A stretch of DNA of 64,000 nt, taken from the NCBI GenBank assembly GCA_037974665.1, contig CM075771.1, forward strand, positions 23,571,425 through 23,635,424, given 5' to 3'. The notes under the pieces were generated by a model. It made no database searches and was not told the origin of the DNA. It saw only the letters and a program-made list of their open reading frames with translations. Position numbers and translations under genes: made by a program. The stretch comes from Ehretia macrophylla (taxonomy: Eukaryota; Streptophyta; Magnoliopsida; Boraginales; Ehretiaceae). Shown here piece by piece: positions 5,549 to 62,728 of the stretch. Within the stretch, counting starts at the first letter, position 1, and the number at the start of each line of letters is the position of its first letter.

Positions 5549-8500
5549 TTCCTCTCTATACTATTTTTTTACAGGAGTAGTTGAAGCAGACCCTCTTGAG
5601 GTAATTGAGGAGGAGGAACAGGTGGAGGTGTTCCCGTGATTGCACTTCTTTGCTTTGCTGGTGGTTGGTTGCCAGATTTTGTGCGAGCCTTGCTTGATAT
5701 GTATATTGCTTGGATGTCGCTTAATTTTGAGGCTTGTAGCCTTGTATGTATTTTCTGGTTTGAGGCCTCTACGGTCTTATGTTGTATAAGTTGGAAGAAT
5801 GTAATAGTTGTAAACTTATACCCTTGTGACTAGTAAGGAAATGCATGCTAATGAAGTTGATTAGTGGCATAAATATTTGTGTAGTATGCATGGCATTTTG
5901 GTTTGGAAAGTTGGTTAATAAGAAAATGTATATTGTGAAGAAAGTCGGCTTGTTTTGATTATTTTATGGCTTTTGCAAGTATTATATTGATTTTAGGGTT
6001 TTCGGATCGTCCGCGGTACAGAGGAGACTCCATCCATGTGTCGGGTCCGGGCTTGGCCTTTTGCGGAGTCGGGTCGGGGTGTGATAGCAGCCGAGCAGGC
6101 TTGCTGCCCCCATCGTAGAACTCTTAGAGAACTTTCCAATGGTATGCTGTGCACCGCGTAACTCCTTACGGATCAAAAGTTATGGGCACCGGAGCGACGG
6201 GACCTTGTCCCAAGCCCCACGCCCTTGGTTTGCAGGCCCTGCCTCTACCTGAAGCGAAGTTGTCTTGCCCAAGGTGCCGTGGGATTCGATAATAAAAATG
6301 TGATGGATTGGGTTGTCGTCCTTTTCGCAGCTCACGACGTACGATCCGGGACGGAAAAACAGCGCAAAAGCATAAAAGTGTCCCAAAACTGATGAAAACG
6401 TTCAATTTTGGACTTTGAAAATAGGCGCAGCCGAAAAGACTAGTTGCTATCGTTGTAGAGCTCTTAGAGAACTTTTCAACGGTATGCTGTGCACCGCGTA
6501 ACTCCTTACGGATCAAAAGTTATAGGCAGCGGAGCGATGGAGACGTGGTCCCAAGCCCCACGCCCTCAGTTTGCAGACCCAGCCTCTACGTGAAATAACG
6601 TTGTCTTGCCCAAGGTACCATGGGATTCGATAATAGAAATGTGATGGATTAGGTTGTCGTCCTTTTCGCGGCTGATGACGTACGATCCATGACAGAAAAA
6701 CAGCGAAAAAGAAGAAAATTATACCGATACTGGTGAAAATGTTTGATTTTGGGGTTCAAAAAAAGCGCGGCTGAGCAGGCTTGCTGCCCCCGTCGTAGAG
6801 CTCTCGGAGAGCTTTCCAACAATATGTTGTGCGCCACGTAACTCCTTACGGATCAAAAGTTATGGGCACCGGAGCGACGGAGACCTAGTCCCAAACCCAT
6901 CGCCCTAGGTTTGCGGGCCCAACCTCTATGTGAAGCGAAGTTGACTTGCCCAAGGTGCAGTGGGATTCGATAATAGAAATACTATGAATTAGGTTGTCGT
7001 CCTTTTAGCTGCTCACGACGCACGATCCGAGACGAAAAAATAGCACAAAAGAAGAAAAGTGTACCGAAATTGAAGAAAACGTTCAATTTTGGGCTCCGAA
7101 AATAGGCGCGGCCGAGCAGGTTTGCTGCTCCCGGCGTAGAGCTCTCGGAGAGCTTTCCAACGGTATGTTGTGCGCCACGTAACACCTTACGGATCAAAAG
7201 TTATGGGTACCGGAGCGATAGATACATGGTCACGAGCCCCACGCCCTCGGTTTTTGGGCTTAGCCTCTACGTGAAGCAAAGTTGTCTTGCCCAAGATGCC
7301 ATGGGATTCAATAATAGAAATGTGATGGATTAGGTTGTCATCCTTTTCGCGGCTAATGACGTATGATCCGGGATGGAAAAACTGCGCAAAAAAAGAAAAG
7401 TATCCCAATACTGATGAAAAAGTTCAATTTTGGGCTTATAAAACAAGCGCAGCCAAGCAGGTTTGCTACCCACGTCGTAGAGCTCTCAGTGAGCTTTCCA
7501 ACGGTATGTTGTGCACCGCGTAACTCCTTATGGATCAAAAGTTATAGGCACCGGAGTGACGAAGACCTGGTCCCAAGCCCTACCCCTCGGTTTACGGGCC
7601 CAGCCTCTACGTGAAGCGAAGTTGTCTTGCCCAAGGTGCCGTGGGATTCAATAATAGAAATGTGATGGATTAGGTTGTCGTCCTTTTCGCTACTCACGAC
7701 GTACGATCCGGGACCGAAAAAGATCGCAAAAAAAAAAGTGTCCCAAAACTGATGAAAACGTTTGATTTTGGGCTCCAACAGTAGGCGTAGCCAAGCAAGC
7801 TTGTTGCACCCATCGTAGAACTCTCGGAAAGCTTTGCAACGGTATACTGTGCGCCGCGTGCCTCCTTACGGATCAAAAGTTATGGGCACCGGAGCAACGG
7901 AGACCTGGTCCCAAGCCCTACGTCCTCGGTTTGCGGGCCTAGCCTCTACGTGAAGCAAAGTTGTCTTGCCCATGGTACTGTCGGATTCAATAATAGAAAT
8001 GTGATGGATTAGGTTGTCGTCCTATTCGTGGCTCACGACGTACGATCCGGGACAGAAAAACAGTGCAAAAGAATAAAAGGGTTCTGAAACTGATGAAAAC
8101 GTTCGATTTTAGGCTCCGAAAACAGATGCAGCCAAGCAGGCTTGCTACCCCCATGATAGAGCTCTCGGAGAGTTTTCCAAAGGTATGCTCTGCACCGCAT
8201 AACTCCTTACGGATCGAATGTTATGGGCACCAGAGCGACTAAGACCTGGTCCCAAGCTCCACGCCCTCGGTTTACGGGCCTAGCCTCTACGTGAAGCGAA
8301 GTTGTCTTTCCCAAGGTGTCGTGGGATTCGATAATGGAAATCTGATAGATTAGGTTGTCGTCCTTTTCGCGACTCACGACTTACGATTCGGGATGAAAAA
8401 ACAGTGCAAAAGAATAAAAGGGTCCCGAAACTGATGAAAATGTTCGATTTTGGGCTCTGAAAACAGGCACAGCCTAGCAAGCTTGCTGCCCCCGTCGTAG

Positions 8501-9129
8501 AGCTCTTGGAGAGCTTTCCAAAGGTATGTTGTGCACCGTGTAACTCCTTACAGACCGAATGTTATGGGCACCGGAGCGATTGAGACCTAGACCCAAGCCC
8601 CACGCCCTCGGTTTGTGAGCCCAGCCTATACGTGAAGTGAACATGTCATGCCCAAGGTGTCGTGGGATTCGGTAATAGAAATGTGATTGATTAGGTTGTC
8701 GTTTCGCTGCTGATGTCGTACGATCCGGGACTAAAAAGCAGCGCAAAAGAAGAAAAGTGTCCCGAAACTGAATAAAACGTTCGATTTTGGGCTCCAAAAA
8801 TAGGTGCAGGTAAGCCAGCTTGATTCCCTCATCGTAGAGCTCTCGGAGAGCTTTCCAACGGTATGCTATGCGCCGCGTAACTCCTTACGGATCAAAAGTT
8901 ATGGGCATCGGAGCGACGGAGACCTAGTCCCAACCCCACGCCCTCGGTTTGCGGGCCCAGCCTCTACGTGAAGCAAAGTTTTCTTGCCCAAGGTGTCGTT
9001 TGATTCAATAATAGACATGTGATGGATTAGGTTGTCGTCATTTTCATGGCTCACGACGTACGATCCGGGATGGAAAAACTGTGCAAAAGAAGAAAAGTAT
9101 CCTAAAATTGATGAAAACGTTTGATTTTG

Positions 9130-10260
9130 GGCTCTGAAAATAGGTGCAGCAGAGAAGGCTAGTTGCCCCCGTCAGAGAGCTCTTGGAGACTTTTCCAACG
9201 GTATGCTGTGCGTCCCGTAACTCCTAACGGATCAAAAGTTATAGGTACCGGAGCGACGGAGACCTGGTCCCAAGCGCCACACCCTCGGTTTTCGGGCCCA
9301 GCCTCTATGTGAAGCGAAGTTTTCTTGCCCAAGTTGCCATGGGATTCGATAATAGAAATGTAATGGATTAGGCTGTCGTCCTTTTCGAGGCTCATGACGT
9401 ACGATCCGGGGCAGAAAAACAGCGCAAAAGAATAAAATTATCCCGATACTGATGAAAACGTTCGATTTTGGGGCTCAAAAACATGCGTAGCCGAGCAGGC
9501 TTGCTACCACCATCGTAGAGCTCTCGGAGAGCTTTCTAACGGTATGTTGTGCGCCGCGTAGCTCCTTACGGATCAAAAGTCATGGGCACCGGAGCGACGA
9601 AGACCTGGTCCAAAGCCCTACGCCCTCTGTTTGTGGGCCCATCCTGTACGTAAAACGAAGTTGTCTTGCCCAAGGTGCAGTGGGATTAGATAATAGAAAT
9701 GTGATGGATTAGGTTGTCGTCCTTTTCATGGCTCACGACATAAGATTCGGGACGGAAAAACAGTGCAAAAAAAGAAAAGTATCTCGATAACGATGAAAAA
9801 GTTTGATTTTGGGCTTCAAAAACAAGTGCAGCCAAGCAGGCTTGCTGCCCTCGTCGTACAACTCTCGGAGAGCTTTCCAACGGTATGCTGTGCATAGCGT
9901 AACTCCGTACGGATCAAAAGTTATGGGCTCCAAAGCGACAGAGACCTGGTCCCAAGCCCCATGCCCTCAGTTTGTAGGCCCAGCCTCTATGTGAAGCGAA
10001 GTTGTATTGCCTAAGGTACCGTGGGATTCAATAATAGAAATGTGATGGATTAGGTTATCGTCCTTTTCGCGGCTCACGACGTACGATCCGGAACAGAAAA
10101 ACAGCACAAAAGAAGAAAAGTATCACAAAACTGATGAAAACATTAGATTTTGGGCTCCAAAAATAGGTGCGGCAGAGCAGGCTTGCTGCCACCATCGTAG
10201 AGCTCTCGGACAGCTGTCCAACGGTATGTTGTTCGCCACGTAACTTCTTACGAATCAAAA
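9130..10260 (-). repeat. Satellite higher-order block, copy A
   Basis: Successive monomers here carry private variants (GAGAAGGCTAGTTGCCCCC near 9153, TTTGGGGCTCAAAAACATGCG near 9467-9486, GATGAAAAAGTTTGATTTTG near 9792). These recur in the same order in 13835-14960, about 14 monomers away. This points to duplication of multi-monomer blocks by unequal exchange. Confidence 0.65.
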
Positions 10261-13200
10261 GTTATGGGCACTAGAGCGACAAAGACCGGGCCCCAAGCCC
10301 CACGCCCTCAGTTTGCGGGCCCAACCTCTACGTGAAGCGAAGTTGTGTTGCCCAAGGTACCATGGGATTCGATAATAGAAATGTGATGGATTAGGTTGTC
10401 GTCCTTTTCGTGGCTCACGAAATACAATCCAGGATGAAAAAACTGCGCAAAAGAATAAAAGTATCCCGAAACTGATGAAAACGTTCGATTTTGGGCTCCG
10501 AAAATAGGTGCAGTCGAGCAGGCTTGCTGCCCCGTACGTAGAGCTCTCGGAGAGCTTTCCAACGATATGCTTTGCGTCGCGTAACTCCTTACGGATCAAA
10601 AGTTATGGGCAGCGGAGCGACTGAGACCTGGTCCCAAGCCCCACGCCCTCGGTTTGCTGGCCCAGCCTTTATGTGAAGCGAAGTTGTCTTTTCTAAGGTA
10701 CTGTGGGATTCGATAATATAAATGTGATGGATTAGGTTGTTGTCATTTTTGCGGCTCATGACGTACGATCTGGGACGAAAAAACATCGCAAAATGAGAAA
10801 AATGTCCCAAAACTGATGAAAACTTTCGATTTTAGGCTCCGAAAACTGGCACAGCCTAGCAAGCTTCCTGCCCCTATCATAGAGCTCTCGGAGAGCTTTC
10901 CAACGGAGCGACGGAGACCTGGTCCCAAGCTCCACGCCTCGGTTTGTAGGCCCAGCCTCTACGTGAAGTGAAGTTGTCTTGCCCAAGGTGCCATGGGATT
11001 CGATAATAGAAATGTGATGGATTATGTTGTCGTCCTTTTCTAGGCTCACGATGTACGATCTGGGAAGGAAAAGCAGCGCAAAAGAAGAAAAGTGTCCCAA
11101 AACTAATGAAAACATTCGATTTTGGGCTCCCAAAACAGGTGCAACCGAGCAGGCTTGCTACCCTCTTCGTAGAGATCTTTGAGAGCTTTCCAACGGTATG
11201 TTGTGTGCTGCGTAACTCCTGACGGATCAAAAGTTATGGGCACTAGAGCGATGGAGACCTGGTCCCAAGCCCCACGCCCTCGGTTTGCGGGCCCAGCCTC
11301 TACGTGAAGCGAAGTTGTCTTGCCCAAGGTGCCGTGGGATTTGATCATAGAAATGTGATGGATTAGGTTGTCGTCCTTTTCTAAGCTCACGACGTACGAT
11401 CCGGGAAGGAAAAACAGCGCAATAGAAGAAAAGTGTCCCAAAACTAATGAAAACGTTCGATTTTGGGCTCCCAAAAGAGGTACAGCCGAGTAGGGTTGCT
11501 ACACCCGTCGTAGAGCTCTCGGAGAGCTTTCAAACGGTATGTTGTGTGCCACATAACTCCTTACGGATCAAAAGTTATGGGCACCGGAGTGACAGATACC
11601 TGGTCACAAGCCCCACGCCCTCGGTTTACGGTCCCAGCCTCTACGTGAAGCAAATTTGTCTTGCCCAAAGTGCCGTGGGATTCGATAATAGAAATGTAAT
11701 GGATTAGGTTGTCGTCCTTTTCGCGGCTGATGACGTACGATCCGGGATGAAAAAACATCATAGAAGAAGAAAAGTGTCCTGAAATTGATTAAAATATTTG
11801 CTTCAAAAATAGGCGCAGCCAAGGAGGCTTGCTGCCTCCGTCGTAGATCTCTCGGAGAGCTTTCCAACGGTATGCAGTGCGCCGCGTAACTCCATACGAA
11901 TCAAAAGTTATGGGCACCGGAGCGACGGAGACCTGGTCCCAAGTGCCACACCCTCGGTTTGCGGGCCCAGCCGCTACGTGAAGTGAAGCTGTCTTGCCCA
12001 AGGTGCTATGGGATTCGATAATAGAAATGTGATGGATTAGGTTGCCGTCCATTTTGCGGCTCACGACGTACGGTCCGGGACGAAAAACCAATGCAAAAGA
12101 AGAAAAGTGTCCCAAAATGGATGAAAATGTTCGATTTTGGGTTCCAAAAGTAGGTACAGCAGAGCAGGCTTGCTGCCCTTGTCGTAAAGCTCTTGGAGTG
12201 CTTTCTATCGTTATGCTGTGCGCTGCATAACTCCTTACGGATCAAAAGTTATGGGCACCGGAGTGACGGAGACTTGGTCCCAAGCCCCATGCCCTCAGTT
12301 TGCGGGCCCAGCCTCTACATGAAAAGAAGTTGTCTCGCCCAAGGTGCCCTGGGATTCGATAATAGAAATGTGATGGATTAGGTTGTCGTCCTTTTCTAGG
12401 CTCACGACGTACGATCCAGGAAGGAAAAACAGCGCAAAAGAAGAAAAGTATCCTGAAACTGATGAAAACATTCAAATTTGGGCTCCGAAAATAGGCACAG
12501 TCGAGCAGGATTACTGCCCCCGTCGTAGAGCTCTCAGAGAGCTATCCAATGGTATGCTAAGCGCTGCGTAACTCTTGACGAATCAAAAGTTTTGGGCACC
12601 GGAGCGACGGAGAACTAGTCCCAAGCCCCACACCCTTGGTTTGCGGGCCAGCCTCTATGAGAAGCGAAGTTGTCTTGCAAAAGGTGCCGTGGGATTCGAT
12701 AATAGAAATGTGAAGGATTAGGTTGTCGTCCTTTTCTAGGCTCACAACGTACGATCCGGGAAGGAAAAACAGCGCAAAAGAAGAAAAGTATCATGAAACT
12801 AATGAAAACGTTCAATTTTGGGATCCGAAAATAGGCGCAGCCGAGCAGGCTTACTACCCTTGTCGTAGAGCTCTCAGAGAGCTTTCCAACGGTATGCTGT
12901 ACGCCGCGTAACTCCTTACGGATCTAAAGTTATGGGCACCGGAGCGACGGAGACCGGGTTCCAAGCCCTACGCCCTCGGTTTGCGGGCCCATCCTCTACA
13001 TGAAGCGAAGTTGTCTTGCCCAATGTGCCTTGTGATTCGATAATAGAAATTTGATGGATTAGGTTGTCGTCCTTTTCGCGACTCATAACGCACGATCCGG
13101 GACGGAAAAACAGCGTAAAAGAAGAAAAGTGTACCGAAACTGTTGAAAACATTCATTTTTGGGCTTCGAAAATAGGCCCAATCGTGCAGGCTTGCTGCCC

Positions 13201-13834
13201 CCGTCATAGAGCTCTCGGAGAGCTTTCCAACGGTATGCTGTGCACCGCGTAACTCCTTACGGATCAAAAGTTATGGGCACCGGAGCGATGGAGACCTGGT
13301 CCCAAGCCCCACGCCCTCGGTTTACGGGCCTAGCCTTTACGTGAAGCGAAGTTGTCTTTCCCAAGGTACAGTGGGATTCAATAATAGAAATGTGATGGAT
13401 TAGGTTGTCGTCTTTTTCGTGGCTCACGACGTACGATCCAGGACGAAAAAACATTGCAAAAGAATACAAGGGTCCCGAAACTGATGAAAACATTCGATTT
13501 TGGGCTCCAAAAACAGGTGCAACGACCTAGGCTTGCTGTCCCCATCGTAGAGCTCTCGGAGAGCTTTCTAAAGGTATGTTGTGCAACTCCTTACAAATCA
13601 AAAATTATGGGCACCGGAGCGACAGAGACCTAGTCCCAAGCCCCAAGCCCTCGGTTTGCGAGCCCAGCCTCTACGTGAAGCAAATTTGTCTTGCCCAAGG
13701 TGCCATGGGATTCAATAATAGACATGTGATGGATTAGGTTGTCGTCATTTTCGCAGCTCACGATGTACGATCCGGGACGAAAAAACAGCGCAAAAGAAGA
13801 AAAATGTCCTGAAACTGATGAAAATGTTTCATTT

Positions 13835-14960
13835 TGGGCTCCGAAAATAGGCCCAGCTGAGAAGGCTAGCTGCCCCCGTCGTAGAGCTCTCGAAAAGCTT
13901 TCCAATGGTATGCTGTGCGCCCCGTAACTCCTTATGAATCAAAAGTTATGGGTACCGGAGCGACGGAGACCTGGTCCCCAGCGCCACGCCCTCGGTTTGT
14001 GTGCCCAGCCTCTATGTGAAGCGAAGTTGTCTTGCCCAAGGTGCCGTGGTATTCGATAATAGAAATGTGATGGATTAGGTTGTCGTCCTTTTCGCGGCTC
14101 ACGACGTACGATCCGGGACATAAAAAATCGCAAAAAAAGAAAATTATCCCGATACTGATGAAAAAGTTCAATTTTGGGGTTCAAAAACATGCGCAGCCGA
14201 GTAGCCTAGCTACCACCGTCGTGGAGCTCTCGGAGAGCTTTCCAACGGTATGCTGTGCGCCGCGTAACTCCTTACGGATCAAAAGTTATGGGCACCGGAG
14301 CGACGGAGACCTGGTCTCAAGCCCTACGCCCTCGGTTTGCGGGACCAGCCTCTACGTGAAGCGAAGTTGTCTTACCCAAGGTGCCGTGGGATTAGATAAT
14401 AGAAATGTGATGGATTAGGTTGTCGTATTTTTCGTGGCTCATGACGTGCGATCCGGGAAGGAAAAACAGCGCAAAAAAAGAAAAGTATCCCGATACTAAT
14501 GAAAAAGTTTGATTTTGGGCTTCAAAAATAGGTGCAGCCAAGCAGGCTTGCTGCCTCCGAAGTAGAGCTCTCGGAGAGCTTTCCAACGGTATGCTGTGCA
14601 TCGCGTAACTCCGTACGGATCAAAAGTTATGGGCATTGGAGCGACGAAGACCTGGTCCCAAGCCCCATTCCCTCGGTTTGCAGGCCCAACCTCTATGTGA
14701 AGCGAAGTTGTATTGCCCAAGGAGCCGTGGGATTCGATAATAGAAATGTGATGGACTAGGTTATCGTCCTTTTTGTGGCTCACGACGTACGATCCGTAAC
14801 GGAAAGACAGCACAAAAGAAGAAAAGTTTCCCAAAACTGATGAAAATATTCGATATTGGGATCCAAAAACCGACACGGCCGAGCAGGCTTGCTGCCACCG
14901 TTGTAGAGCTCTAGGAGAGCTGTCCAACGGTGTGCTGTGCACCACGTAACTCCTTACGGA
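13835..14960 (-). repeat. Satellite higher-order block, copy B
   Basis: This partner of 9130-10260 has the same variant order: GAGAAGGCTAGCTGCCCCC near 13859, TTCAAAAACATGCGCAGCC near 14179, and GATTTTGGGCTTCAAAAATA near 14511. The offset is about 4.7 kb, or 14 monomers less the 60-bp loss near 10901. Confidence 0.6.
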
Positions 14961-16261
14961 TCAAAAGTTATGGGCACTAGAGCGATCAAGACCTGGCCCC
15001 AAGGCCAACGCCCTCAGTTTGCGGGCCCAGCCTCTACGAGAAGCGAAGTTGTCTTTCCCAATATGCCGTGGGAATCGATAATAGAAATATGATGGATTAG
15101 GTTGTCGTCCTTTTCGCGGCTCACGACGTACGATCCAGGACAAAAAAACACCGCAAAAGAAGAAAAGTGTCCTGAAACTGATCAAAACGTTCAATTTTGG
15201 GCCCGACAATAGGCGCAGCCTAGTAGGCTTGCTACCCCCATCGTAGAGCTCTCGGAGAGCTTTCCAACGGTATTCAGAGCCACGTAACTCCTTACGGATC
15301 AAAAGTAATGGGCCCCAGAGCGACAGATACATGGTCACAAGCCCCACACCCTCAGTTTGCGGGCCTAGCCTCTACGTGAAGCGAAGTTGTCTTGCCCAAG
15401 GTGCTATGGGATTTGATAATAGAAATGTGATGGATTAGGTTGTCGTCCTTTTTGCGGCTCACGACGTACGATCCGGGACAAAAAAACGGCGGAAAAGAAG
15501 AAAAGTATCCCGAAACTGATGAAAACATTCAATTTTGGGCTCCCAATATAGGCACAGCCGAGCAGGCTTGCTGCCCTCCTCGTATAACTCTCGGAGAGCT
15601 TTCCAACTGTATGTTGTGCGTCGCGTAACTCGTTACAGATCAAAGTTATGGGCAGCGGAGCGACGGAGACCTGGTCCCAAGCCCCACGCCCTCGGTTTAC
15701 GGGCCCAGCCTCTACATGAAGCAAAGTTGTCTTGCCTAAGGTGCAGTGGAATTCGATAATATAAATGCGATGGATTAGGTTGTCGTTCTTTTCGCAGCTC
15801 ACGACATACGATCCGGACGGAAAAATGACGCAAAAGAAGAAAAGTATCCCAAAACTTATGAAAACATTCAATTTTGGGCTCCAAAAATAGGCGCAGCTGA
15901 GCAGGCTTGCTGCCCACGTCGTAGAGCTCTCGGAGAGCTTTCCAATGGTATGATGTGCGTCATGCAACTCCTTACGGATCAAACGTTATGGGCATTAGAG
16001 CGACGGATACCTGGTCACAAGTCCGACGCCCTCGGTTTGCTCGCCCAGCCTCTACATGAAGTGAAGTTGTCTTGCCTAAGGTGCTGTGGGATTCAGTAAC
16101 AGAAATATGATGGATTAGGTTGTCGTCCTTTTCGCAGCTCATGACGTACGATCTGGGACGAAAAAATAGTGCAAAAGAAGAAAAGTATCCCGATACTGAT
16201 GAAAACGTTTGATTTTGGGCTCCGAAAATTGGCGCAGCTGTGAGGCCCGACCTCGACTTGT

Positions 16262-16460
16262 GTGTGATACCTCGTTTCATGTGCCCTAACTTAGATTTGC
16301 GTGCCTTGACCTAGGTTTAAGAATTGTGTTTTATTTTGTGTGCCTTGCATTGAATTACGTGCATTCATTTAGGATTGCGTGCATTTACTTGGGAAATGTG
16401 CATTCGTCTCGTAGTTCGTGCCTTACCTCGTAGTGCGTGCCCTAAACCTAGGAAAACATG
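16262..16460 (+). repeat. Degenerate short tandem repeats at LTR 5' end
   Basis: Variants of CGTGCNTTNACCTNG recur every 20-30 bp (GTGCCCTAACTTAG, GCGTGCCTTGACCTAGG, GTGCCTTACCTCG, GCGTGCCCTAAACCTAGG). The same zone is present in the nested LTR and is expanded in the solo LTR at 36289, which partly explains that LTR's greater length. Confidence 0.6.
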
Positions 16461-18585
16461 CCCTCACGCTAATCAAGAAAGCATCTTACACGAAGCACTA
16501 GACCATTAATTAATCCTACAAATTCTACTAACTAATATTAAATTGCTAATTCAACCCACTAGAAGACAAAATCTCACAAAAAGCTAGACATTCTTTATTC
16601 CTTATTCTTTATTCTTTGCATATCCCAATAACACAATTAAAATATTGCTCAACCAAGACAAAAAATTCAGATTCTTGTAATGCCTTGGCCGACCACCTTG
16701 TGTGCATTTGTGCTTGCTTGCATAATTCAAAATTGAACCTAGACAATTCTATGACACAAAGCAATAAAAAAATTAGCTCAAAACCCTCCTCAAAGCTCCA
16801 ATTCTCGACACAAGCTCCTTGCCCGTGCTTGACACTTCAAATGATGCTTCTTGAAGACACAAAATCTGAATTTGCAAAGCTCAAGGCCGACATATGCTTC
16901 AAACTTTGCAAAGCTTTTATTTTTCTTTCATTTTCCTTCATTTCCTCTCATTCCTCTCTCATTTCTTCTCTCTCTCTCGGCCTTGGCTGAGTTTCTACAC
17001 TCTATAGTTTATCTTCATCACTTCACGGTTCATCAAAGCATGCAAGAAGCTAGGGAGCTCGACTAAGCAAGCTAGGTTGTAAGAAACACACATGCAAGCT
17101 CTTTGAACCTCCATTTCGGCTTAGGTGAGTTTGCTAGCTTCCATTTCTTTTCTTCTTGTTCTAACCACATGCACCTACTAAGAACTTGGTTACTAAGCTA
17201 GGAAATTAGAGAAAATCAAGTGGTGTCTCAGCTAAGCAAGGAAAAGAGTCAATCTTGTGCAACCATCAAGAGTCTTGTGCATCTTCTTGTTGTTTTACTA
17301 AGGTGAGGGGCTAAACTTCTTGAAAATCTTTATAAAAAAAAACCACATGCATGCCCTTAAATGTCTATCTTTACTTTTGTACTTGAGATATATGCGTGTT
17401 CATGAGCTTTTATAAACATGCATGGCAAGATTCTTGGCTAGAATGTGATGATAGATGAAATCAGATATGTGACAGTTTTCTGCCTTGTTAGTACGAGGTG
17501 ATTTTGACTAGGTAAATGATATTAAAAATGCGTGAAAATTGGTAGGTAACTAGTTTTTGCAGTTCTCAACACTTGTCACAGAAATAGGCCAAATCTAATT
17601 TCGACTCTAAGGTCCTCAAAATGGCTAATTATCAAAATGTGTCCAAATCTGGAAAGTCTGGAAAAATGAAGCAGGTTTTGGTAGATTCACTGACCTTGTA
17701 GAACGAACCAGTTTTGACTTAATAAATGATATCCAAAATGCATGAAATTTTGTGTGCAGCTATATTTTTCAGTTCTGGACATTTTTGTCAGAAATGGACT
17801 AAGGCTAAATCTGACCCGAAGGCCCTAAAAAACGACAAGTATTGAAATGTATGCAAATCTGGACAGTTTTGTGCAGTCTCACTGTTTTGGCTATAACTAT
17901 TGAACCCGAACTCCAAATGATGCGAGGTTTGTTTCTGAATTTAGTTCACTCCTTAACCTTTAATTTTACATCTTATTCACTGGAATTGGAGATTATTTTC
18001 TTGTCTTAATGATTGTGAGAAAACAGTCCATTGCAATGAGGGTTTCACTTAGTGAAATGCTTAGAAAAATTGTTGTAGCTTCTCTTGTTGTATTAAATGC
18101 TTGAGATTGTGGCATTTGGATGTTGTGTGGACTGTTCTAAATGCTTAAGGGTGTTTGAATTAATCAATGCGTGGCTTGAGTTTAATTACGAGATGACTTG
18201 GGACTTAATTGCACACGGGTAAGCACGAATTGAAACCCTAGTGACTAGGTAAATTTGCTAAGTTGTTGATCTTATGGACATCATGTTTGATTATGAAATT
18301 AGTAGACTACCCGTAGTTGCCCTCATAGCCCTAAACATGATTTCGATGATTACATGTTGACAAGTAGGCCTTTCTTGCACCCGGTTCCACGTAGACGTCA
18401 TTGCATGTTGAATAATCTTATTATTTGATTACGTGAACTTTGAAATGAGTTATATGACTTGATTTACATGCATTACATGGCTGCCCGTTTAATATTCATA
18501 TAACTCCATGTGCTTTATAAGTGAAATTGCCTGTCATATCGTGCCTCGCTTGTTTACTTGTCAATGTGCAATCTTATGACTGCTC

Positions 18586-18611: not shown

Positions 18612-18651
18612 TAATGTGATATATTAAATGTCATAATTATGCATTGCATAC

Positions 18652-50768: not shown

Positions 50769-50887
50769 GGTTACGATCATACCACCAGTAATGCACTGGA
50801 TCCCATCAGAACTACAAAGTTAAGCATGCTTGGGTGGGAGTAGTACTATGATGGGTGACCCCCTAGGAAGTCCTCGTGTTGCACCCC
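50769..50887 (+). rRNA. 5S rRNA-like copy 36
   Basis: Class I-like; duplicate of copy 29, ending the duplicated block. Confidence 0.84.
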
Positions 50888-51301: not shown

Positions 51302-51420
51302 AGGTGCGATCATTCCATCAGTAATGCACTAGATCCCATCAGAACTCCAAAGTTAAGCATGCTTGGGCAAGAGTAGTACTAGGATGGGTGACCCCCTTGG
51401 AAGTCCTCGTGTTGCACCCC
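51302..51420 (+). rRNA. 5S rRNA-like copy 37
   Basis: Class I copy starting AGGTGCGATC. Box A reads GTTAAGCATGCTTGGGCAAG. Confidence 0.85.
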
Positions 51421-51832
51421 CCTTTTAGTTTTGTTTTTTTGCCCCGTTCAGGCATGCGAATATGCTTTATCCGTGACATTTCTATTATTAAGTCCCACGG
51501 CATCTTGGGCAAGACAACTTTGCTTCGTGTAGAGGCTAGGCCTGCAAACCGAGTGCGTGGGGCCTGTGACCAGGTCTCCGTCGCTCTGGTGCCCATAACT
51601 TTTGATCCGCAAGGAGTTATGCGACGCACAGCATACCGTTGGAAAGCTCTTCGAGAGCTTTACGACGGGGGCAAGAAGCCTGCTTGGCTGTGCCTTATTT
51701 CGGTGACCAAAATGAATGTTTTCATCAGTTTTGAGCTACTTTCTTCTTTTTGTGCTGTTTTCTTTGTTTCGTATCGTTCGTCGGGAGCCGCGAAAAGGAT
51801 GACACATAAAGGCTTAGCGCCCTCAACATTAC

Positions 51833-51951
51833 GGGTGCGATCATACCAACAGAAATGCATTGGATCCCATCTGTACTCCGAAGTTAAGCATGCTTGGGCG
51901 AGAGTAGTACAAGGATAGGTGACCCCCTGGGAAGTGCTCGAGTTGCACCCC
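51833..51951 (+). rRNA. 5S rRNA-like copy 38
   Basis: Class II copy. Box C reads GGATAGGTGACC and the end has GTGCTCGAGTTGC. Confidence 0.85.
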
Positions 51952-52363
51952 CCTTTTTGTTTTGTTTTTTGCTCCGTTCAGGCTTGCCAAGATGCTTTAT
52001 CCGTCCCATTTCTATTATCGAGTCCCACGGCATCTTGGGCAAGACAACTTCGCTTCGCGTAGAGGCTAGGCCCGCAAACTGAAGGCGTGGGTCCTGTGAC
52101 CAGGTCTCCGTTGTTCCGATGCCCTAACTTTTGATCTGTAAGGTGTTATGCAGTGCACAGTATACCGTTAGAAAGCTTTCCGAGTGCTCTATGATTGGGG
52201 CTGCAAGCCTACTCAGCTGCGATTGTTTTCAGAGCCCAAAAATTGAACGTTTTCATCAGTTTCAGGCCATTTTTTTTCTTTTTATGATGTTTCTTCGTCC
52301 CGGATCGTTCGTTAGGAGCGGCAAAAAGGACAACAAATAAGGGCTTTGGGCCCTCAGCATGAC

Positions 52364-52482
52364 GAGTACGATCATACCATCTGTAATGCATCGGATCCTA
52401 TCTATAATCCGAAGTTAAGCGTGCTTGGGCGAGAGTAGTACAAGTATGGGTGACCCCCTGGGAAGTTCTTGTATTGCACCCC
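52364..52482 (+). rRNA. 5S rRNA-like copy 39
   Basis: Class III-like copy (TCTGT with CTATA). Last copy before element 3. Confidence 0.84.
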
Positions 52483-52754
52483 CCTTTTCATTTTTTTTTT
52501 GCCCTGTTCATGCTTGCCCAAATGTTTTATCCATCACATTTCTATTATCGAGTCCCACGGCATCTTGGCCAAGACACCTTCACTTCGCGTAGAGGCTATG
52601 CCCACAAACCGAGGGTGTGGGGCCTGTGGCAAGGTTTCTATCGCTCCGATGCCCATAACTTTTGATTTGGAAGGTGTTATGCGCTGCACAGCATACCGTT
52701 GGAAACCTCTTTGAGTGGTCTATGATGGGGGTAGCAAGCCTGCTCTACTGCATC

Positions 52755-55163
52755 TGTCACGCCCCAACTCGACCCCACCTACAATCAGTTAGCACGCAAC
52801 GGAATTTCAGCAGTATAACGACAGTAATTAAGACACCGAGGCTCTAAACCAACCCCTCATAACATCATACAATCAAACTCCTCAACCAAACAACAACCAA
52901 TTCCTCAATACCATTAACAACATACAACATAACCATATTATACAACAATCATTCTTAGACGATCCACTCATAGTTATACGCCTCCGTTCCAACATAATAC
53001 CTTAACTTTAACATACATATCAAAATAGATTATAAACCAATTTAGTAATCTAAACAAGGTCAAAAGAAGACTACTAAATCATTATACATCAGTCTTTATA
53101 CTAAGGTAGGTTTTACAATACATCATATTACAATAACTATAAACAATCTCATGGCAAAGACTCTTGCACATAAGACTCATCCACGTAAGGCACATTTTCC
53201 CCTTCTGGAGGCACGTACCCGAAATCTTGAGAAATGACACCTTTAAGCATGCAATAATAGAGAGTGAGCTTATATAAAACAAGCTCAGCGAGGATCCGAT
53301 AAATCTTTAACAGTATTTACTACACTCCTTGGAAATGATCCTTTGAGCAAGTAAACACACAATAACATCAATAATACTATCATCACATAAACTATAATGA
53401 CCATTCAATGAAGGATACATTAGTTGGTGTAGCTCCAAATGCCATCACGATCATAACAGCCTTCTTGTGACTCCCATAAACTCACGCACCTGAGGTACCT
53501 CAATAACCTCTCCCTCTATGACCCCTCTGTCATGTGAGTTGGAGGTAGTCTCTAGTAGTCATGCCGTTATCAACCCGACAGCCGGATGCTGCCCGAGAGG
53601 TGGCACACACATACCAATGACTCAGCAATAATAATAAACATCAATCATTCACAGGAGGACAACCTTTTCCATTGACTATCTCCCGGTTCATCAATCATCA
53701 ATCAATAATCATATTATCATCATAATAACATCAATAATCAATTTAACAACAAATAACTAAGTTAGATGACAAAATAGGCCATCCAACCGAACATGTGTTA
53801 AACACACAATCAAACCCTAGTTTACCCATCATCAACTCACAATTCAATCACTCAAACCACACCCAATCAACTAAGGCATAATTTAACATTTTAAAGAAAG
53901 ACAACCTAAACTTCAAATATTCATAACCTACATTCTACTAGTCCAAACCACTTCAAATCAGTTTCTATTACTCACCCAATCAATCAACTACATTAGCCCC
54001 CTCGGAAACCAACCAAAACACATCCAAATCATGCCCAACAACCCTAAAACCCTAATGCGTCATGGCTGAAATTTCTGGACTTCCACACGGACATCACAAT
54101 CGAAAATTCGGCATTACAACAGCGCTACCAAGTAATTATCAAACTTTTAGAAATGGACGGCAATCGATTTCAACTAATACAACTCAAGATAATCAAGAAA
54201 TGGCAAATAACTCAACTTTAAATACCCAAAAATAAATAATTATGCTACAACGGTTCAAATCTCGTAAGATTACATATAAATGATCCCTATCATGCACTAA
54301 GCAATAATCTAATATCAAATTAACATTTTAACGGTTCAATAATCAATTCTACGCAAAAACATAAAAGATGAGTTTTGAGATCCAGAATTTTTCTCTCACC
54401 TTTGATGCGAAATAAGCCTAGATATGCGTGTAATGCGTGCCCAACAAGAGGAATCCAACTCGGCACGAAAATTTACAAACAAAAACTAGCTTTTTCTTTG
54501 AAAATTTGCTTTGAAAACCTTGAAATTTCTTTCTCTTTTTTTCCTCTCCTTCCTCACGTCAATGTGTGTGCAAATGGGTATGTTTTTGTGCTTTGCTTGT
54601 GTGTGTTGGTGATATATGCATAAAGGTCAACAACTTAAATGAAAGTCAAAGTTGAAATTAATTGATTTTTAGTGTTTTCTTGACTTTAAATTCATTTTTT
54701 TTATCACCATTTCTCAAAACAATTATACAACACCCAAGATAGCTCAAGTAGGTTATTTTTAGGTGACAAGAAGTTTTACATCCAAACAATTCTACCCTAG
54801 TCGGCTTAAAACTCGATTTTTACAAAAGTCGGTGTAAAAACCCTAATAAATTCCTAAGCCGATTTGAAAACCGTTTTAATCAAACACATGTCTATTAAAG
54901 TCCGAGGACTAGGTCTAGAAGGGTTAAAAAGACCAGTTTCAAAATTTTAGCGGACGTGTTTCAAAAATACTATTCACTAAAAGTCGACGATAAAATTTCT
55001 GACTCCATTTTTGATAAAAATTTCATGAATGCACATTTAGCATGTTCTAGGAGTAATATCAAAATTATCACATTCTAAGTCATATAGCACATAAACAAGT
55101 CAATTCACGCAAAACGAGATAAAGCACGTAAAACGAGACAGGATAGAAAAGTGGGGTTTCACA
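52755..55163 (-). repeat. 3' LTR of element 3
   Basis: This 2,409-bp LTR, read on the minus strand, starts TGTGAAACCCCAC and ends GAGTTGGGGCGTGACA. It is a third LTR family but shares the GGGGCGTGACA end with the element 2 family. It contains the conserved hairpin at 53265-53287. Confidence 0.93.
53265..53287 (-). other. Conserved LTR hairpin (element 3, 3' LTR)
   Basis: A perfect 7-bp stem TGAGCTT with AAGCTCA surrounds a 9-base loop. In element orientation it reads CTCGCTGAGCTT ... AAGCTCACTCTC. It lies about 510 bp from the LTR 3' end, like the hairpins of the other families but with a different stem sequence. Confidence 0.6.
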
Positions 55164-55184
55164 TTCTCCCCCCCCCCCCCTTAA
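55164..55184 (-). other. Polypurine tract of element 3, with G13 run
   Basis: On the minus strand this reads TTTAAG followed by 13 G and AGAA, directly next to the 3' LTR. The long G run is unusual and could vary in length by slippage or sequencing error. Confidence 0.8.
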
Positions 55185-55199
55185 AGAAATTTCGTCCTC

Positions 55200-58100
55200 G
55201 AAATTCTTACTTGATGTATTGAACAGATCTGGGGACTGCTGATGCATCTGATCTCGTCTCTCCCAATTAGCTTCCTCGATACCGTGATGCTTCCACAAGA
55301 CCTTAACCATCGGAATCTTCTTCGACCTCAACTCTCGTTCCATCTGATCAAGAATACGAATTGGACGCTCGTCATAAGTCAGATTCTCACGAAGCTATAG
55401 CGGCTCTGGCTCAAGAATATGAGAAGGATCCGGATTATATTTTCGCAAATTAGACACGTGAAATACATCGTGGACATTTGAGAAATTCTCTGGTAAAGCC
55501 AACCGATATGCCAACTTACCTACTCTGCTAGTAATCTCAAATGGCCCTACAAACCTCGGACTCAGCTTACCACCTTTACCATAACGAGCAAACCCCTTAC
55601 GAGGAGACAATCTCAAGAAAACCTGATCTCCGACTGCAAACTCCATGTCCCGACGACGCTTATCAGCATAACTCTTGAATCTACTATGCACCGTAAGCAT
55701 TCTCTGCCTGATCAACTGAATATTCTCAATCTTCTCAAGAAGCTCTGGCATGATAGTCGGATCAATAGTCTTCATCTCCCCTACCTCATCCCAATACAAA
55801 GGTGAACGACACTTACGACCGTAAAGAGCGGCAAAAGGTGCCATCCCAATAGTAGCTTGATAACTATTGTTATAGGCAAACTCAGCAAGTGGTAGATGTT
55901 TCTCCCAGTTCTTCCCGAAGTCCAGAAAACAAGCCCTGAGCATATCTTCCAGAATCTGAATAGTCCTCTCAGATTGACCGTCGGTCTGGGGATGATACGC
56001 TGTACTGAAATTAAGCTAAGTACCCAAAGTCTCCTGAAGTTTCTCCTACAAGCGAGAAGTAAATCGAGGATCTCGATTTGAGACAATACTAGATGGAATC
56101 CCGTGAAGTCTAACAATCTGATCCAAATAAAGACCTGTTAACTTTGTAACCTCATCTCCCATCCTCATCGAAATAAAATGAGCTGTCTTCGTCAAACGAT
56201 CCACGACAACCCAAACTGCATCATTACCCCTCGCTGTTCTAGGCAAACTAATGACGAAACCCATCGTAATATGCTCCTATTTCTACTCTGGTATAGCCAA
56301 CGACTAAAGTAACCCTACAGGTCGTTGATGCTCGGATTTTACCTTCTGACAAGTCAAACATCTAGATACAAACTGAGCAACCTCTCTCTTCATGTTATTC
56401 CACCAGTAATGTTGCTTCAAATCCCGATACATCTTGGTTCCACCTGGATAAATAGTATACTTAGAATTATGAGCCTCCTCCAGAATACCTCGCCTTAAGC
56501 CCGATTCATCGGGAACACAAACCCTGTTCCGAAATCGAAGAATACCATCCTCATGCACTTTGAAGTCAGACTGATCATCCGTGATCTGGTCCTTGATCTT
56601 CTGAAGTTTAGCGTCAAGTTGCTGAGCTTCTCTGATTTGAGACATCAATAAAGGCTGAATACGGAGATGTGAACACATCACCCCAACTTGAGTCAACTCC
56701 GGTCTCCAATAAGTAAATTCCTCAAGAACCTCCCATTTCTTGATAGCCAAACAAGAAACACTTGCCTTACGGCTAAGAGCGTCTGCCATAACATTTGCCT
56801 TCCCAGGCAGATAGTTGATAGAACAATTATAATCTCCAAGAAGTTCCATCCACCTCCGCTGATGCATATTCAACTCCTTCTGTGAAAATAAATACTTAAG
56901 ACTCTTATGATCAGTGAAAATCTCGAACTTACTACCCCACAGATAATGACGCCACTTTTTCAGTGCGAAAACAACAGCTGCCAACTCAAGATCATGAGTC
57001 GGATAATTCTTCATAATGTTTCAACATTCTAGATGCATAGGCAATAACCTGGTCATTCTGCATAAGTACACATCCCAAGCCCTCCTTGGATGCATCGCTG
57101 TAGATGACCATATTGTCAGTCCCCTCTGGTAGAGCAAGTACTGGAGCAGTAGTCAACCTCTTTTTCAACTCTTGAAATCCACTCTCGCATTTCTCATCCC
57201 AAACAAAACTAGTCTGTTTCTGAGTTAACTTAGAAAGTGGCCCTGCAATCTTAGAAAAGTCCTTGACAAACCTACGATAATAACCTTCCAAGCCAAGAAA
57301 GCTACGAACCTCCGAAACATTCTTCGGACGTTTCCAAGACATCACCACTTCAATCTTAGTGGAATCTATAGATATATCGCTCTATGTAATCACGTGGCCA
57401 AGAAAAGATATGTGTTGCCGCCAAAATTCATATTTGCTGAACTTGGCAAACAACTAATGCTCCTGCAATTTCTGTAAGACAAGCTATAGATGTTGCTCGT
57501 GCTCCGATTCAGATTTAGAATAGACCAAGATATCATCAATAAATATAACCACGAATTGGTCCAAGTACGGCATAAAAACCCGAAGCACAAGGTCCATAAA
57601 TGCTGCCGGTGCATTAGTTAATCCAAAGGGCATAACTACAAACTCATAATGCCCGTACCGAGTCCTGAAGGCAGACTTCGGAACATCCTCCGTGCGAATC
57701 GGAAGCTGATAATACCCCTACCTCAAGTCAAACTTAGAGTAGACTTTGGCTCCCTAAAGTTGATCAAACAACTCATCAATCAGTGGCAAAGGATACTTGT
57801 TCTTGATGGTCACCTGATTCAAACCACGATAATCAATACACAATCTCAAGGTACCATCTTTCTTCTTCACAAATAAAACAGGAGCTCCCCAAGGTGAAGA
57901 GCTCTGCTGAATGAAACCCTTATCTATTAACTCCTGCAACTGAGTTTTCAGCTCCTTCAACTTAGCTGGTGCCATCCGATACGCTGATTTTGAAATCGGT
58001 TGAGTACCGGGAATAAGATTAATCACAAACTCCACATCTCTCTCTGGCAGTAACCTTGGCAACTCCTCGGGAAATACATTAGGATATTCCCGAATAATAG

Positions 58101-59892
58101 GAACTTCCTCTAGCTGTAGCTTATCAGATGTCTTGTTGATCAAATAAGCTAGATAACCCGAACACCCCTTACTCACCAACTTAACGGCTTTAGTTGCTGA
58201 GATAACAAAACTCGTCTTAGCACCCCGGTTCCCTACTACCTCAACTACTGGCTGATCTGGCAAACGAACTGTACTACCTTTGTTCTATAGTTCAACTAGG
58301 CATCATACTTAGATAGCGAATCCATACCCAAGATAACATCGTACCGCCGGATAGGAAATAAGATAAGGTCCGAAGGAAAATTATACCCTTTAACATGTAA
58401 TATACAATCCTTACATATTAAGCCAGTAACATACTTATCAGTCAAAGAGGTACTAATCTCAACCACATAAGGCAATCTTTCAGGTTGCATATTAACACGT
58501 TGCACACAAGCAGGAGTAATGAAAGAATGCGTAGCACCAGAATCAATCAACACTTTAACAAGTTGATCAAGTATAAGGAAGTGGCCTTCCACCACTGCAG
58601 TCTCCTCAGGCATCTCCTCTAAGTCAACTGCGTAGGCCCGAGCCTGAACTCGCTGCTGCTAAGGTGCACTGGCCGCAAGTCGGCCCTGATAACCCTGAGT
58701 CGCTGTCCAACCCTTAGTCCTCGAATATCTAGGGCAATCCCTCGCCCTATGCTAATTTTTGCCTCATCCTAAACACATCCCTGCCCTCACTCTATAATCG
58801 GCCTCCACATGCCCCGTGTGCTTGCAATGTGTACACTGCGGTGATGATGCACTAACACTACCCCTGGAAGAACCAGAAGCTGAAGAAACAGCTGAACCAG
58901 CCAGCTGCTGAGGCCTTACCAAACTAGGCCTGTACTGACCCTGAGATTGGGCTGGCCTAAACTGGGACTGAACCTGATATGACCCCTGTTGAAACTGAGG
59001 CTGATAATAACTCTGTTGTCCCTGTAGCCTAAAAGAACCTTGCTGAGCTGGTGGCCTGTACACAACCTGCTGTATGGGAGGCCTATACATGCTCTGCTGA
59101 AACTGCGGCTGATACGACCTCTTACTAAGCTGACTAGACACAAGCTAATCCCCCTTTCTCTTTTATAACCTAGAAGCTGCATCAAAGGCCTCAATGAATA
59201 TATCATATCGATTCAGAGCTATCGCATCCTGAATCTCGGGCCTCAACCCCAACATAAATCTACAAGTCCTCCGCTCCTCATCAGCCACATACTTAGGTGC
59301 ATACCGGGACAATCGAGTAAATGTGGCCTCATACTAAGCTACTGAGGCATCCTCCTGAATCAGAGACAGAAACTCAGCCTCTCTCCTCTCCTGTGCAATC
59401 CTTCGGACATACTTCTCCCGAAAAGCTCTCAGGAAGGTATCCCAGGCATAAGGAACACCCCGAGTCTCCCAGCTAGCTCTCATTGTGCGCTACCATTCCT
59501 CTGCCTCATCATCTAATAAGTATACGGCAAAGGTAACCTTTCGTTCATCGGTGTAATCAAGACGATCATAAATCTTCTCCACCTTATTAATCAACGCTTC
59601 AGCCTTCCGATCATCGGGTTCCCCCTAAAATCAAGGTGGATGATACCCTAAGAACTCTTTTAGGGTACCACACCCGTGGTTTCCACCATGTACATTCAAT
59701 AGCTGAGCCTGCAAAGCCTGAGTCTGGGCAGCTTGCCCTGCTAACAACTGTGCATGTCCGGCCACTAACTCAGCAATCCTATCCATAGCTGCCCCAAAAC
59801 GATCATCACCCCTATCACGGCCTGGTGCCGCATTACCAGGAGTCTCATCTACTACCTCGGGCCAACCTCTGGTCCTTGGTCTATTGGCCATT
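55200..59892 (-). pseudogene. Degraded gag-pol remnant of element 3
   Basis: Relic of the polyprotein. The gag N-terminus starts MANRPRTRGWPEVVDE near 59892. A Q/Y/P-rich linker with repeated FQQG- and PPAQQ-type motifs leads to a zinc-knuckle region near 58800. The protease region has VLIDSGATHSFI near 58530-58560. RT has [20 protein letters not shown] near 57850-57900, RNase H has TDHKSLKYL near 56905, and integrase has [20 protein letters not shown] near 56430-56480, CLTCQ near 56345 and [10 protein letters not shown] near 55790. The C-terminal part has [11 protein letters not shown] near 55460 and the chromodomain-like VKVLWKHHGIEEANWE near 55270-55320. Not continuous and not expected to be functional. 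Confidence 0.9.
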
Positions 59893-60153
59893 CTACTAAT
59901 CAAAGAGTTAACACAGGTTATAGCACGTAAACAGGTTATAAACAACTATTAGCACATAAACAACAAACTCATATAAAACACATAAACAAATTGATCACAT
60001 AATCACATAAGCACTGAATCACATAATCACTTAATCACTTAATCATTTTAATCATATTAATACATGGTTCACTTTTCTTTCTTTTCATACATACTTTCAT
60101 GCTAAGACCATTACCCACATTCCGAGAATACACCGGCTGACATCTAAACATGC

Positions 60154-60165
60154 GCTCTGATACCA
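60154..60165 (-). other. Primer-binding site, initiator-Met tRNA type (element 3)
   Basis: On the minus strand TGGTATCAGAGC matches the first 12 bases complementary to the initiator-Met tRNA 3' end, 6 bp inside the 5' LTR. Beyond 12 bases the match stops. Confidence 0.82.
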
Positions 60166-60171
60166 CTTAAA

Positions 60172-62583
60172 TGTCACGCCCCAACTCGACCCTACCTACA
60201 ATCAGCCAGGACGCAACGGAATTTCAGCAGTATAACGACAGTAATTAAGACACCGCGGTTCTAAACCAACCTCTCAGAACATCATTCATTCAAACTCCTC
60301 AACCAAACAACAATCAATTCCTCAATACCATTAACAACATACAACATAACCATATTATACAACAATCATTCTTAGACGATCCATTCATAGTTATACGCCT
60401 CCGTTCAAACACAATACCTTAACTTTAACATACATATCAAAATAGATGATAAACCAATCTAGTAATCTAAACAAGGTCAAAAGAAGACTACTAAACCATT
60501 ATACATCAGTCTTTATACTAAGGTAGATTTTACAATACATCATATTACAATAACTATAAACAATCTCATGGCAAAGACTCTTGCACATAAGACTCATCCA
60601 CGTAAGGCACATTTTTCTCTTCTGGAGGAATGTACCCGAAATATTGCGAAAGAACACTTTTAAGCATGCAATAATAGAAAGTGAGCTTATATAAAACAAG
60701 CTCAGCGAGGATCCGATAGATCTCTAACAGTATTTATTATACTCCTTGGAAATGATCATTTGAGCAAGTAAACACATAATAACATCAATAATACTATCAT
60801 CACATAAACTATAATGACCATTCAATAAAGGATACACTAGTTGGTGTAGCTCCAAACGCCATCACGATCATAACAGCCTTCTTGTGACTCCCATAAACTC
60901 ACGCACCTGAGGTACCACAATAACCTTTCCCTCCATGACACCTCCGTCATACGAGCTGGAGGTAGTCTCTGGTAGTCATGCCATTATCAACCCGACAGCC
61001 CGATGCTGCCCGAGAGGTGGCACAAACATACCAAAGGCTCAGCAATAATAATAAACATCAATCATTCACAGGAGGACAACCTTTTCCGTTGACTATATCC
61101 CGGTTCATCAATCATCAATCAATAATCATATTATCATCATAATAACATCAATAATCAATTTAACAACAAATAACTAAGTTAGATGACAAAGTAGGCCATC
61201 TAACCGAACATGCGTTAAACACACAATCAAACCCTAGTTTACCCATCATCAACTCACAGTTCAATCACTCAAACCACACCCAATCAACTAAGACAAAATT
61301 TAACATTTTAAAGAAAGACAACCTAAACTTCAAATAATCATAACCTACATTCTACTAGTCCAAACCCCTCCAAATCAGATTCTATCACTCACCCAATCAA
61401 TCAACTACATTAGCCCCCTCGAAAACCAACCAAAACACATCCAAATCATGCCCAACAACCCTAAAACCCTAATGCGTCATGGTTTAAATTTTTGGACTTC
61501 CACACGGACATCACAATCGAAAATTCGGCATTACAACAGTGCTACCAAGTAATTATCAAACTTTTAGAAATCGACGACAATCGATTTCAACCAATACAAC
61601 TCAAGATAATCAAGAAATGGCAAATAACTCAACTTTAAATACCCAAAAATAAATAATTATGCTACAACGGTTCAAATCTCGTAAGATTACATATAAATGA
61701 TCCCTATCATGCACTAAGCAATAATCTAATATCAAATTAACAATTTAACGGTTCAATAATCAATTCTACGCAAAAACATAAAAGATGAGTTTTGAGATCC
61801 AGAATTTTTCTCTCACCTTTGATGCGAAATAAGCCTAGATATGCGTGTAATGCATGCCCAACAAAAGGAATCCAACTCGGTACGAAAATTTACGAACAAA
61901 AACTAGCTTTTTCTTTGAAAATTTGCTTTGAAAACCTTGAAATTTCTTTCTCTTTTTTTCCTCTTCTTCCTCACGGCAATGTGTGTGCAAATGGTTGTGT
62001 TTTTGTGCTTTGCTTGTGTGTGTTGGTGATATATGCATAAAGGTCAACAACTTAAATGAAAGTCAAAGTTGAAATTAATTGATTTTTAGTGTTTTCTTGA
62101 CTTTAAATTCATTTTTTTGATCACCATTGCTCAAAACAATTATACAACACCCAAGATAGCTCAAGTAGGTTATTTTTAGGTGACAAGAAGTTTTACATCC
62201 AAACAATTCTACCCGAGTCGGCTTAAAACTTGGTTTTCGCAAAACTCGGTGTAAAAACCCTAATAAATTCCTAAGCCGATTTGAAAATCGTTTTAATCAA
62301 ACACAGGTCTATTAAAGTCCGAGGACTAGGTCTAGAAGGGTTAAAAAGACCAGTTTCAAAATTTTAGCGAACGTGTTTCAAAAACACTAATCATTAAAAG
62401 TCAACGATAAAATTTCTGACTCCGTTTTTGATGAAAATTTCATGAATGCACATTTAGCATGTTCTAGGAGTATTAATATCAAAATTATCACATTCTAAGT
62501 CATATAGCACATAAACAGGTCAATTGACGCAAAACGAGATAAAGCACGCAAAACGAGACAAGATAGAAAAGTGGGGTTTTACC
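60172..62583 (-). repeat. 5' LTR of element 3
   Basis: This 2,412-bp LTR is a partner of 52755-55163. Samples show about 17 differences in the first 300 bp and about 8 in a 240-bp stretch near the other end. It carries the same hairpin at 60682-60704. Confidence 0.93.
60682..60704 (-). other. Conserved LTR hairpin (element 3, 5' LTR)
   Basis: The stem and loop are identical to 53265-53287, although flanking bases have changed between the two LTRs. Confidence 0.6.
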
Positions 62584-62728
62584 GCGTCTGTTTTCAAAGC
62601 CCAAAAATTGAACATTTTCATCAGTTTCGGGCCACTTTTCTTCTTTTTCCGCTGTTTCTTCCTCCCGGATCGTTCGTCGGGAGCCGAAAAAAGGACAACA
62701 AATAAGGGCATTAAGCCTTCAACATGAC

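Follow-up and report, generated by a model that had tools for sequence, protein, structure and literature searches.

The DNA analysed here, hereafter the window, is a stretch of 64,000 nucleotides from Ehretia macrophylla (assembly GCA_037974665.1, contig CM075771.1, forward-strand positions 23,571,425 to 23,635,424). Judging from its 5S genes and retroelements, it probably represents a decayed plant-like 5S ribosomal DNA (rDNA) locus in nuclear DNA, in which arrays of 5S-derived repeat units are interrupted by long terminal repeat (LTR) elements. The Rfam scan of the window gave 42 matches to 5S rRNA; they run from 28,198 to 63,908, every one on the + strand, and the units bearing them are mostly ~532 bp long. 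Unit positions are numbered from the start of the 5S gene (+1 = 1) on a 533-bp consensus built from 35 of the 38 unit intervals. The intervals of 552, 684 and 684 bp were left out, and a 227-bp interval at 28198 was likewise not included. The features, with their window coordinates, strands and identities, are the following.

1–6086, + strand: element 1, Ty3/gypsy, with its 5′ part outside the window; Pfam domains and one visible LTR
6087–6091, + strand: GCAGC adjoining element 1, unit positions 386–390; the other end of the element is outside the window
6087–16238, − strand: array 1, 341-bp units (Tandem Repeats Finder), matching the unit consensus on the minus strand (blastn)
16234–16238, + strand: GCAGC adjoining element 2, unit positions 386–390
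16239–27806, + strand: element 2, 5′ LTR at 16239–19826 followed by pol (self-blast and Pfam)
23393–26994, + strand: solo LTR nested in the pol region of element 2, flanked by two identical copies of the 5-bp target GATGT
27807–36288, + strand: array 2, mostly ~532-bp 5S rDNA units, in the orientation opposite to array 1
36284–36288, + strand: TCTGG, left duplication copy of the solo LTR, unit positions 398–402
36289–40221, + strand: solo LTR, 3.93 kb, of the family of element 2
40222–40226, + strand: TCTGG, right duplication copy of the solo LTR, identical to the left copy (5/5)
40222–52754, + strand: array 3, 5S rDNA units
52750–52754, + strand: GCATC, left duplication copy of element 3, unit positions 389–393
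52755–62583, − strand: element 3, Ty3/gypsy, with both LTRs and broken reading frames
62584–62588, + strand: GCGTC, right duplication copy of element 3, a 4/5 match to GCATC
62584–64000, + strand: array 4, 5S rDNA units

The four junctions between LTR elements and arrays fall at nearly the same point of the repeat unit. On the consensus they lie at 386–390 (element 1), 386–390 (element 2), 389–393 (element 3) and 398–402 (the solo LTR). Their starts span 12 bp, and all four are contained in 17 bp, at −148 to −132 relative to the next 5S gene (132–145 bp upstream of the 5S start for element 3 and the solo LTR). An earlier interpretation made from the letters of the window, which we call the sequence-only reading, had claimed a cluster with these offsets in this region upstream of the 5S start, and the consensus coordinates agree with it on both points. 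The 17-mer by which it had described the site, GCTGCGCCTGTTTTCGG, has 0 exact occurrences in the window; the majority sequence is GCTGCGCCTATTTTCGG, with A for G at the tenth base.

A target-site duplication can be checked for two of the four insertions, being 5/5 at the solo LTR and 4/5 at element 3; the nested LTR, which is not in an array, also has a 5/5 duplication. The difference between GCATC and GCGTC appears to be of the CpG-decay kind. Because one end of each of elements 1 and 2 is missing, their GCAGC is abutting sequence only and not a proven duplication. The target 5-mers listed in the sequence-only reading hold in full for TCTGG, in the left copy for GCATC, and only as adjoining letters for GCAGC. 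The LTRs of element 2, the solo LTR and the nested LTR all start with TGTGAGG, and GCGTGACA, the right end of the solo LTR, is found reversed at the left end of element 3. The LTR of element 1 ends in GTGTGATA, with TA where CA is canonical, and the outer right end of element 3 starts with GG (TG in its inner LTR). These two junction ends have decayed, and their exact base depends on the alignment. Element 2 lacks its 3′ end, and its right border is not an LTR end but a break inside the integrase at ~27,806, which sits at unit position 143.

The visible units flanking elements 1 and 2 are of a type without the 5S gene. The unit of array 1 keeps consensus coordinates 168–505, and the 5S gene and its flanks are gone (blastn); the Rfam 5S scan of array 1 (6087–16238) gave no match. 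Because elements 1 and 2 adjoin this array, what is common to all four sites is the spacer and not the gene. Array 1 as a whole is a satellite built of 341-bp units from the 5S rDNA spacer, which have lost ~190 bp with the 5S gene.

The elements belong to three LTR families inserted in two orientations, as the sequence-only reading had proposed. Elements 1, 2 and 3 run antisense to the 5S unit, with the solo LTR alone in sense orientation. The first family is that of element 1, the second includes element 2, the solo LTR and the nested LTR (74–82% identical over the main blocks), and the third is that of element 3. The visible LTR of element 1 (~2.28 kb, from ~3805, TGTAATACC...GGGGTGTGATA) shares 87 bp (74%) with the nested LTR and 70 bp (74%) with the solo LTR, and it has no match to the own 5′ LTR of element 2 at E 1e-3. 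The LTR of element 3 has no match to the other LTRs of the window. In contrast, the coding parts of elements 1, 2 and 3 are 67–74% identical to one another, and by these sequence comparisons we regard them as three families of one lineage.

The domain search took in 10 of the 16 open reading frames, two of which had no Pfam match. Element 1 carries, in order, RVP_2, RVT_1, RT_RNaseH, Integrase_H2C2, a sub-cut-off rve and an SH3_Tf2-1 tail, which is the Ty3/gypsy order of protease, reverse transcriptase, RNase H and integrase; parts of this order are found in elements 2 and 3. The solo LTR, being non-coding, was placed with Ty3/gypsy by its LTR similarity to element 2. The integrase tails of element 1 (E = 0.0037, 17.6 bits) and element 3 (E = 0.022, 15.1 bits) match Pfam Chromo below its cut-off of 25.1 bits, and element 2 has lost that region. 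Because the matches of both tails are sub-cut-off, we label elements 1–3 chromovirus-like Ty3/gypsy. Their long LTRs suggest that they may belong to the Tekay clade, which is delimited by reverse transcriptase and integrase phylogeny. The two LTRs of element 3 (~2.41 kb each) are 95.6% identical, with 104 differences in 2,407 sites and a Kimura two-parameter (K2P) distance of 0.045. At the rate of 1.3e-8 substitutions per site per year used in PMC5688495, this would correspond to an age of ~1.7 million years; this and the other papers cited below were consulted in extracts, to which our statements about them refer. The nested LTR is of the same family as its host element 2 and constitutes a self-insertion.

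To evaluate the cluster, all LTR/array junctions of the window were entered into the statistics, so there was no picking among insertions. The simulation drew 2,000,000 uniform placements, two insertions going into the 338 bases kept by the shorter unit and the other two into 533, and the probability of four starts falling within 12 bp was 7.2e-5; it was 1.7e-3 when elements 1 and 2 were treated as one event. The Bayes factor for one 17-bp hot spot at an unknown place over uniform placement is ~2e4 for four insertions, 980 for three and 31 for the two verified ones; these values are generous because the 17-bp width was derived from the data. The strength of the probabilities depends on elements 1 and 2 being independent insertions. 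Independence is favoured by the difference between their LTR families; the identical site and orientation at the two ends of one array, with no provable duplication, speak against it, leaving this point in doubt. The differing LTR families and the two orientations exclude the copying of a single insertion by unequal crossing-over. General fragility of the spot was also rejected as a cause. The 12 other array breakpoints lie at 82, 388, 119, 143, 168, 505, 262, 337, 285, 334, 318 and 324, and 11 of them are outside the cluster; the probability that a 25-bp stretch contains one or more of them is 0.44.

We consider the observation good and the statistics suggestive, and give an even chance to the interpretation that the spacer encodes a modest integration hot spot, independent of RNA polymerase III (Pol III), which is used by chromovirus-like Ty3/gypsy elements. 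Because the insertion sites match whether or not the unit carries the 5S gene, a shared cause would be sought in the common spacer. Three chromovirus-like families integrated at nearly one spacer point, and they would have followed a cue encoded in the segment common to both unit types (168–505). The site coincides with a transition from GC-rich to A/T-rich DNA in the spacer, and the cue would most likely be local DNA geometry at this transition or a nucleosome positioned there, by which a single exposed face is offered to the integrase. Neither the 5S gene nor its Pol III complex would then be needed. That one such Pol III-independent landing site in the spacer serves several plant chromovirus families is a proposal we make tentatively and with some doubt.

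Several results weigh against a spacer-encoded hot spot. There are only four cases, two of them with a checkable duplication, and the probability for the two verified insertions alone is 0.036; the claim of the sequence-only reading that random placement is unlikely is supported on this small sample. One of the other breakpoints, the deletion end at 388 in the unit at 28198, falls inside the cluster. The site is also unlike a conserved recognition sequence, because no other 20-bp window diverges as much as 381–400, and this holds with the CpG columns removed (0.141; the next value is 0.134 at 141–160 and 421–440). By eye, the target of the nested LTR, GATGT, shows no clear motif in common with the others. 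The DNA of the site folds no better than its shuffles (z = −0.46, with 61/200 shuffles as good, and z = 0.02, with 88/200). In a crude periodicity model of nucleosomes, the best dyads of the 533-bp unit are near the 5S start (7–57 and 529–530) and those of the 341-bp unit are at 476–498, 415 and 191–222, with no common position at 386–402. The nucleosome edge suggested by the sequence-only reading thus receives no support from this model, which is too crude to weigh heavily. If phased nucleosomes offered two to three equivalent windows per unit at assumed places, the chance of all four insertions falling in one of them would be 0.5–5.6%; this is better than uniform placement, yet one preferred window would still be needed. 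As separate observations, unit positions 361–460 are among the most diverged stretches even without CpG columns, and the unit lengths of 341 and 532 come close to two and three times the nucleosome repeat, which is arithmetic and not evidence.

The most serious rival is chance combined with non-independence, in which four (effectively two or three) insertions happen to lie close together in old, insertion-tolerant arrays. We regard this as rather unlikely. It draws on the small number of cases, the unverifiable duplications of elements 1 and 2 and the value for the verified pair given above. Insertion of transposable elements (TEs) into diverged 5S arrays is moreover ordinary; in the extracts on the wheat 5BS locus, the TEs are located in spacers with a single exception (PMC5688495). 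The low probabilities for four and for three insertions, obtained with every junction counted, argue against chance. A related account supposes a shared rearrangement, in which elements 1 and 2 are not independent, for example because recombination at a single insertion site fixed where the array ends, leaving three events. The same abutting 5-mer, the same orientation and the lack of a provable duplication at elements 1 and 2 are consistent with it, as is the position of element 2 at the switch of array orientation. However, the LTRs of elements 1 and 2 are of different families and a recognizable LTR end is present at each junction, and we consider this account quite improbable, a shade below the targeting by Pol III discussed next.

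Pol III-linked targeting, which the sequence-only reading had put forward by analogy with yeast Ty1 and Ty3, would mean that the integrase is steered by factors on the 5S gene, either TFIIIB/TFIIIC or Pol III itself, as with Ty1, Ty3 and Tj1. Element 3 and the solo LTR lie upstream of a 5S start, but elements 1 and 2 adjoin an array without the gene. This argument is strict only if elements 1 and 2 inserted after the loss of the 5S gene. The 42 5S copies were compared with three internal promoter boxes, an exact match being a strict test. Box A is exact in 13/42 copies, the intermediate element in 27/42 and box C in 15/42; only one copy has all three, and the other 41 have at least one altered box. 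A T4 run follows the gene in 42/42 copies, and C is present at −1 in 28/42. The sole copy with all three boxes exact is directly downstream of the solo LTR, which is a contrary hint in favour of Pol III. Divergence per 20-bp window is ~5–11% in the 5S gene and ~6–18% in the spacer, so that the gene is only slightly better kept, and the arrays look like relics. Ty3 inserts at the Pol III start, and Ty1 uses a nucleosomal window that reaches from an active Pol III gene to as far as ~1 kb upstream. For Ty1, Ty3, Tj1 and TRE5, insertion occurs at a set distance from the Pol III gene, and Ty1 uses nucleosome faces (PMC5911963). Tj1 inserts far closer to its targets than the present elements, with 13 of 17 sequenced inserts located upstream of tRNA genes at distances of 12 bp or less (PMC4600332). 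Here the distance is 132–148 bp in the 5S-bearing units, two of the four sites are without a Pol III gene, and the placement is not of the Ty3/Tj1 type; a Ty1-type distance fits element 3 and the solo LTR, with elements 1 and 2 again lacking the gene. Taken together, Pol III-linked targeting is disfavoured and appears improbable.

A structural cause was also contained in the sequence-only reading, namely recognition of a cruciform or palindrome at GCAGC...GCTGC. By eye, the two 5-mers are able to pair around an 11-base loop. However, the folding energies reported above are those of shuffled sequence, and palindromes have a published effect that is very small and, in Tekay, falls short of significance (p 0.61; PMC6911290), which makes a cruciform very hard to credit. 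A weak preference in target-site duplications was likewise rejected as the cause of the cluster. Such duplications rarely have T on the left or A on the right and have an AT-rich centre (PMC6911290); three of the four sites conform in their end letters, TCTGG does not, and in our judgement the preference is too weak for a 17-bp cluster.

The spacer-encoded hot spot can be compared with several known systems. Across 12 plant genomes, LTR elements are inserted non-randomly; predicted nucleosome occupancy follows a strong positional pattern at their sites, and the preference for palindromes is slight (PMC6911290), which speaks for a hot spot of the proposed kind. The Galadriel chromovirus Beon1 occupies one conserved position of the beet 18S rDNA, with a 5-bp duplication and both orientations across Beta species (PMC3605345). 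It resembles the present case as a chromovirus at one position of an rRNA repeat, but it is one family in the 18S coding region, for which the authors suggest a possible single event, whereas three families share the 5S spacer here. In tomato, TRRT is found at the same site of several 18S rDNA units, once in opposite orientation and once as a solo LTR, with an rDNA-derived satellite nearby (PMC2679016). It resembles the present case in its recurring site, mixed orientation, solo LTR and satellite, but TRRT is one family with the same flanks, and the authors invoke recombination after insertion. Because three families are involved here, a single event spread by recombination or descent, which the authors favour for beet and tomato, cannot cover the present case; the insertions are also in the 5S spacer and not at a fixed position inside the 18S gene. 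The short-unit 5S locus of wheat 5BS has highly diverged units broken by several TEs, mostly LTR elements, and shares with this window both the diverged units and the insertions in spacers (PMC5688495). It differs in that the extracts of that paper describe neither unit coordinates of the insertions nor a 5S-less derivative array. Among the matches listed in the open-access literature, mostly judged by title and the start of the abstract, none described a unit-coordinate hot spot in 5S spacers. The matches listed for centromere-targeting elements contained none on a 5S-spacer hot spot either, and the extracts of PMC8961926 and PMC12371157 contained nothing on one. According to PMC6317226, in its consulted part, the partners of the type II chromodomains of seed-plant chromoviruses are not identified.

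Several further rearrangements were observed in the arrays. The array orientation flips across element 2 (16238–27807), whose broken 3′ end joins unit coordinate 143; the element may thus contain the breakpoint of an inversion or a deletion. The 227-bp unit at 28198–28424 has a deletion that joins 5S position 81 to ~389, with its endpoint inside the insertion cluster. A 3,875-bp segment of the 5S array (~7 units) is tandemly duplicated at ~43100–46999 and ~46975–50874. The two copies are 94–100% identical per 100 bp, mostly 100%, which would indicate either that an unequal exchange took place very recently or that the assembly is in error. An insert of 227 bp replaces unit coordinates 262–337 at 45939–46165 and is repeated at 49814–50040 in the duplicate unit; it presumably resembles plastid rRNA-operon spacer DNA. 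Searches with sequence patterns of the unit or of plant 5S gave 0 loci in a viral contig collection, and those with unit patterns gave 0 loci in a genome contig collection. An LTR-end pattern found in two viral contigs was dismissed as chance matches, with no blastn match of these contigs to the window at 1e-5.

In our judgement, the choice of bases by plant LTR elements within heterochromatic repeats is largely open. Tandem repeats offer many near-identical targets, and a histogram of insertions over the unit reads the preference of the integrase directly. If 5S-bearing and 5S-less units had a peak in common, computation alone would suffice to tell a cause in chromatin or DNA apart from tethering by Pol III. 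If the spacer indeed encodes a Pol III-independent landing site, it would constitute a chromatin-encoded safe haven for LTR elements that outlives its gene of origin.

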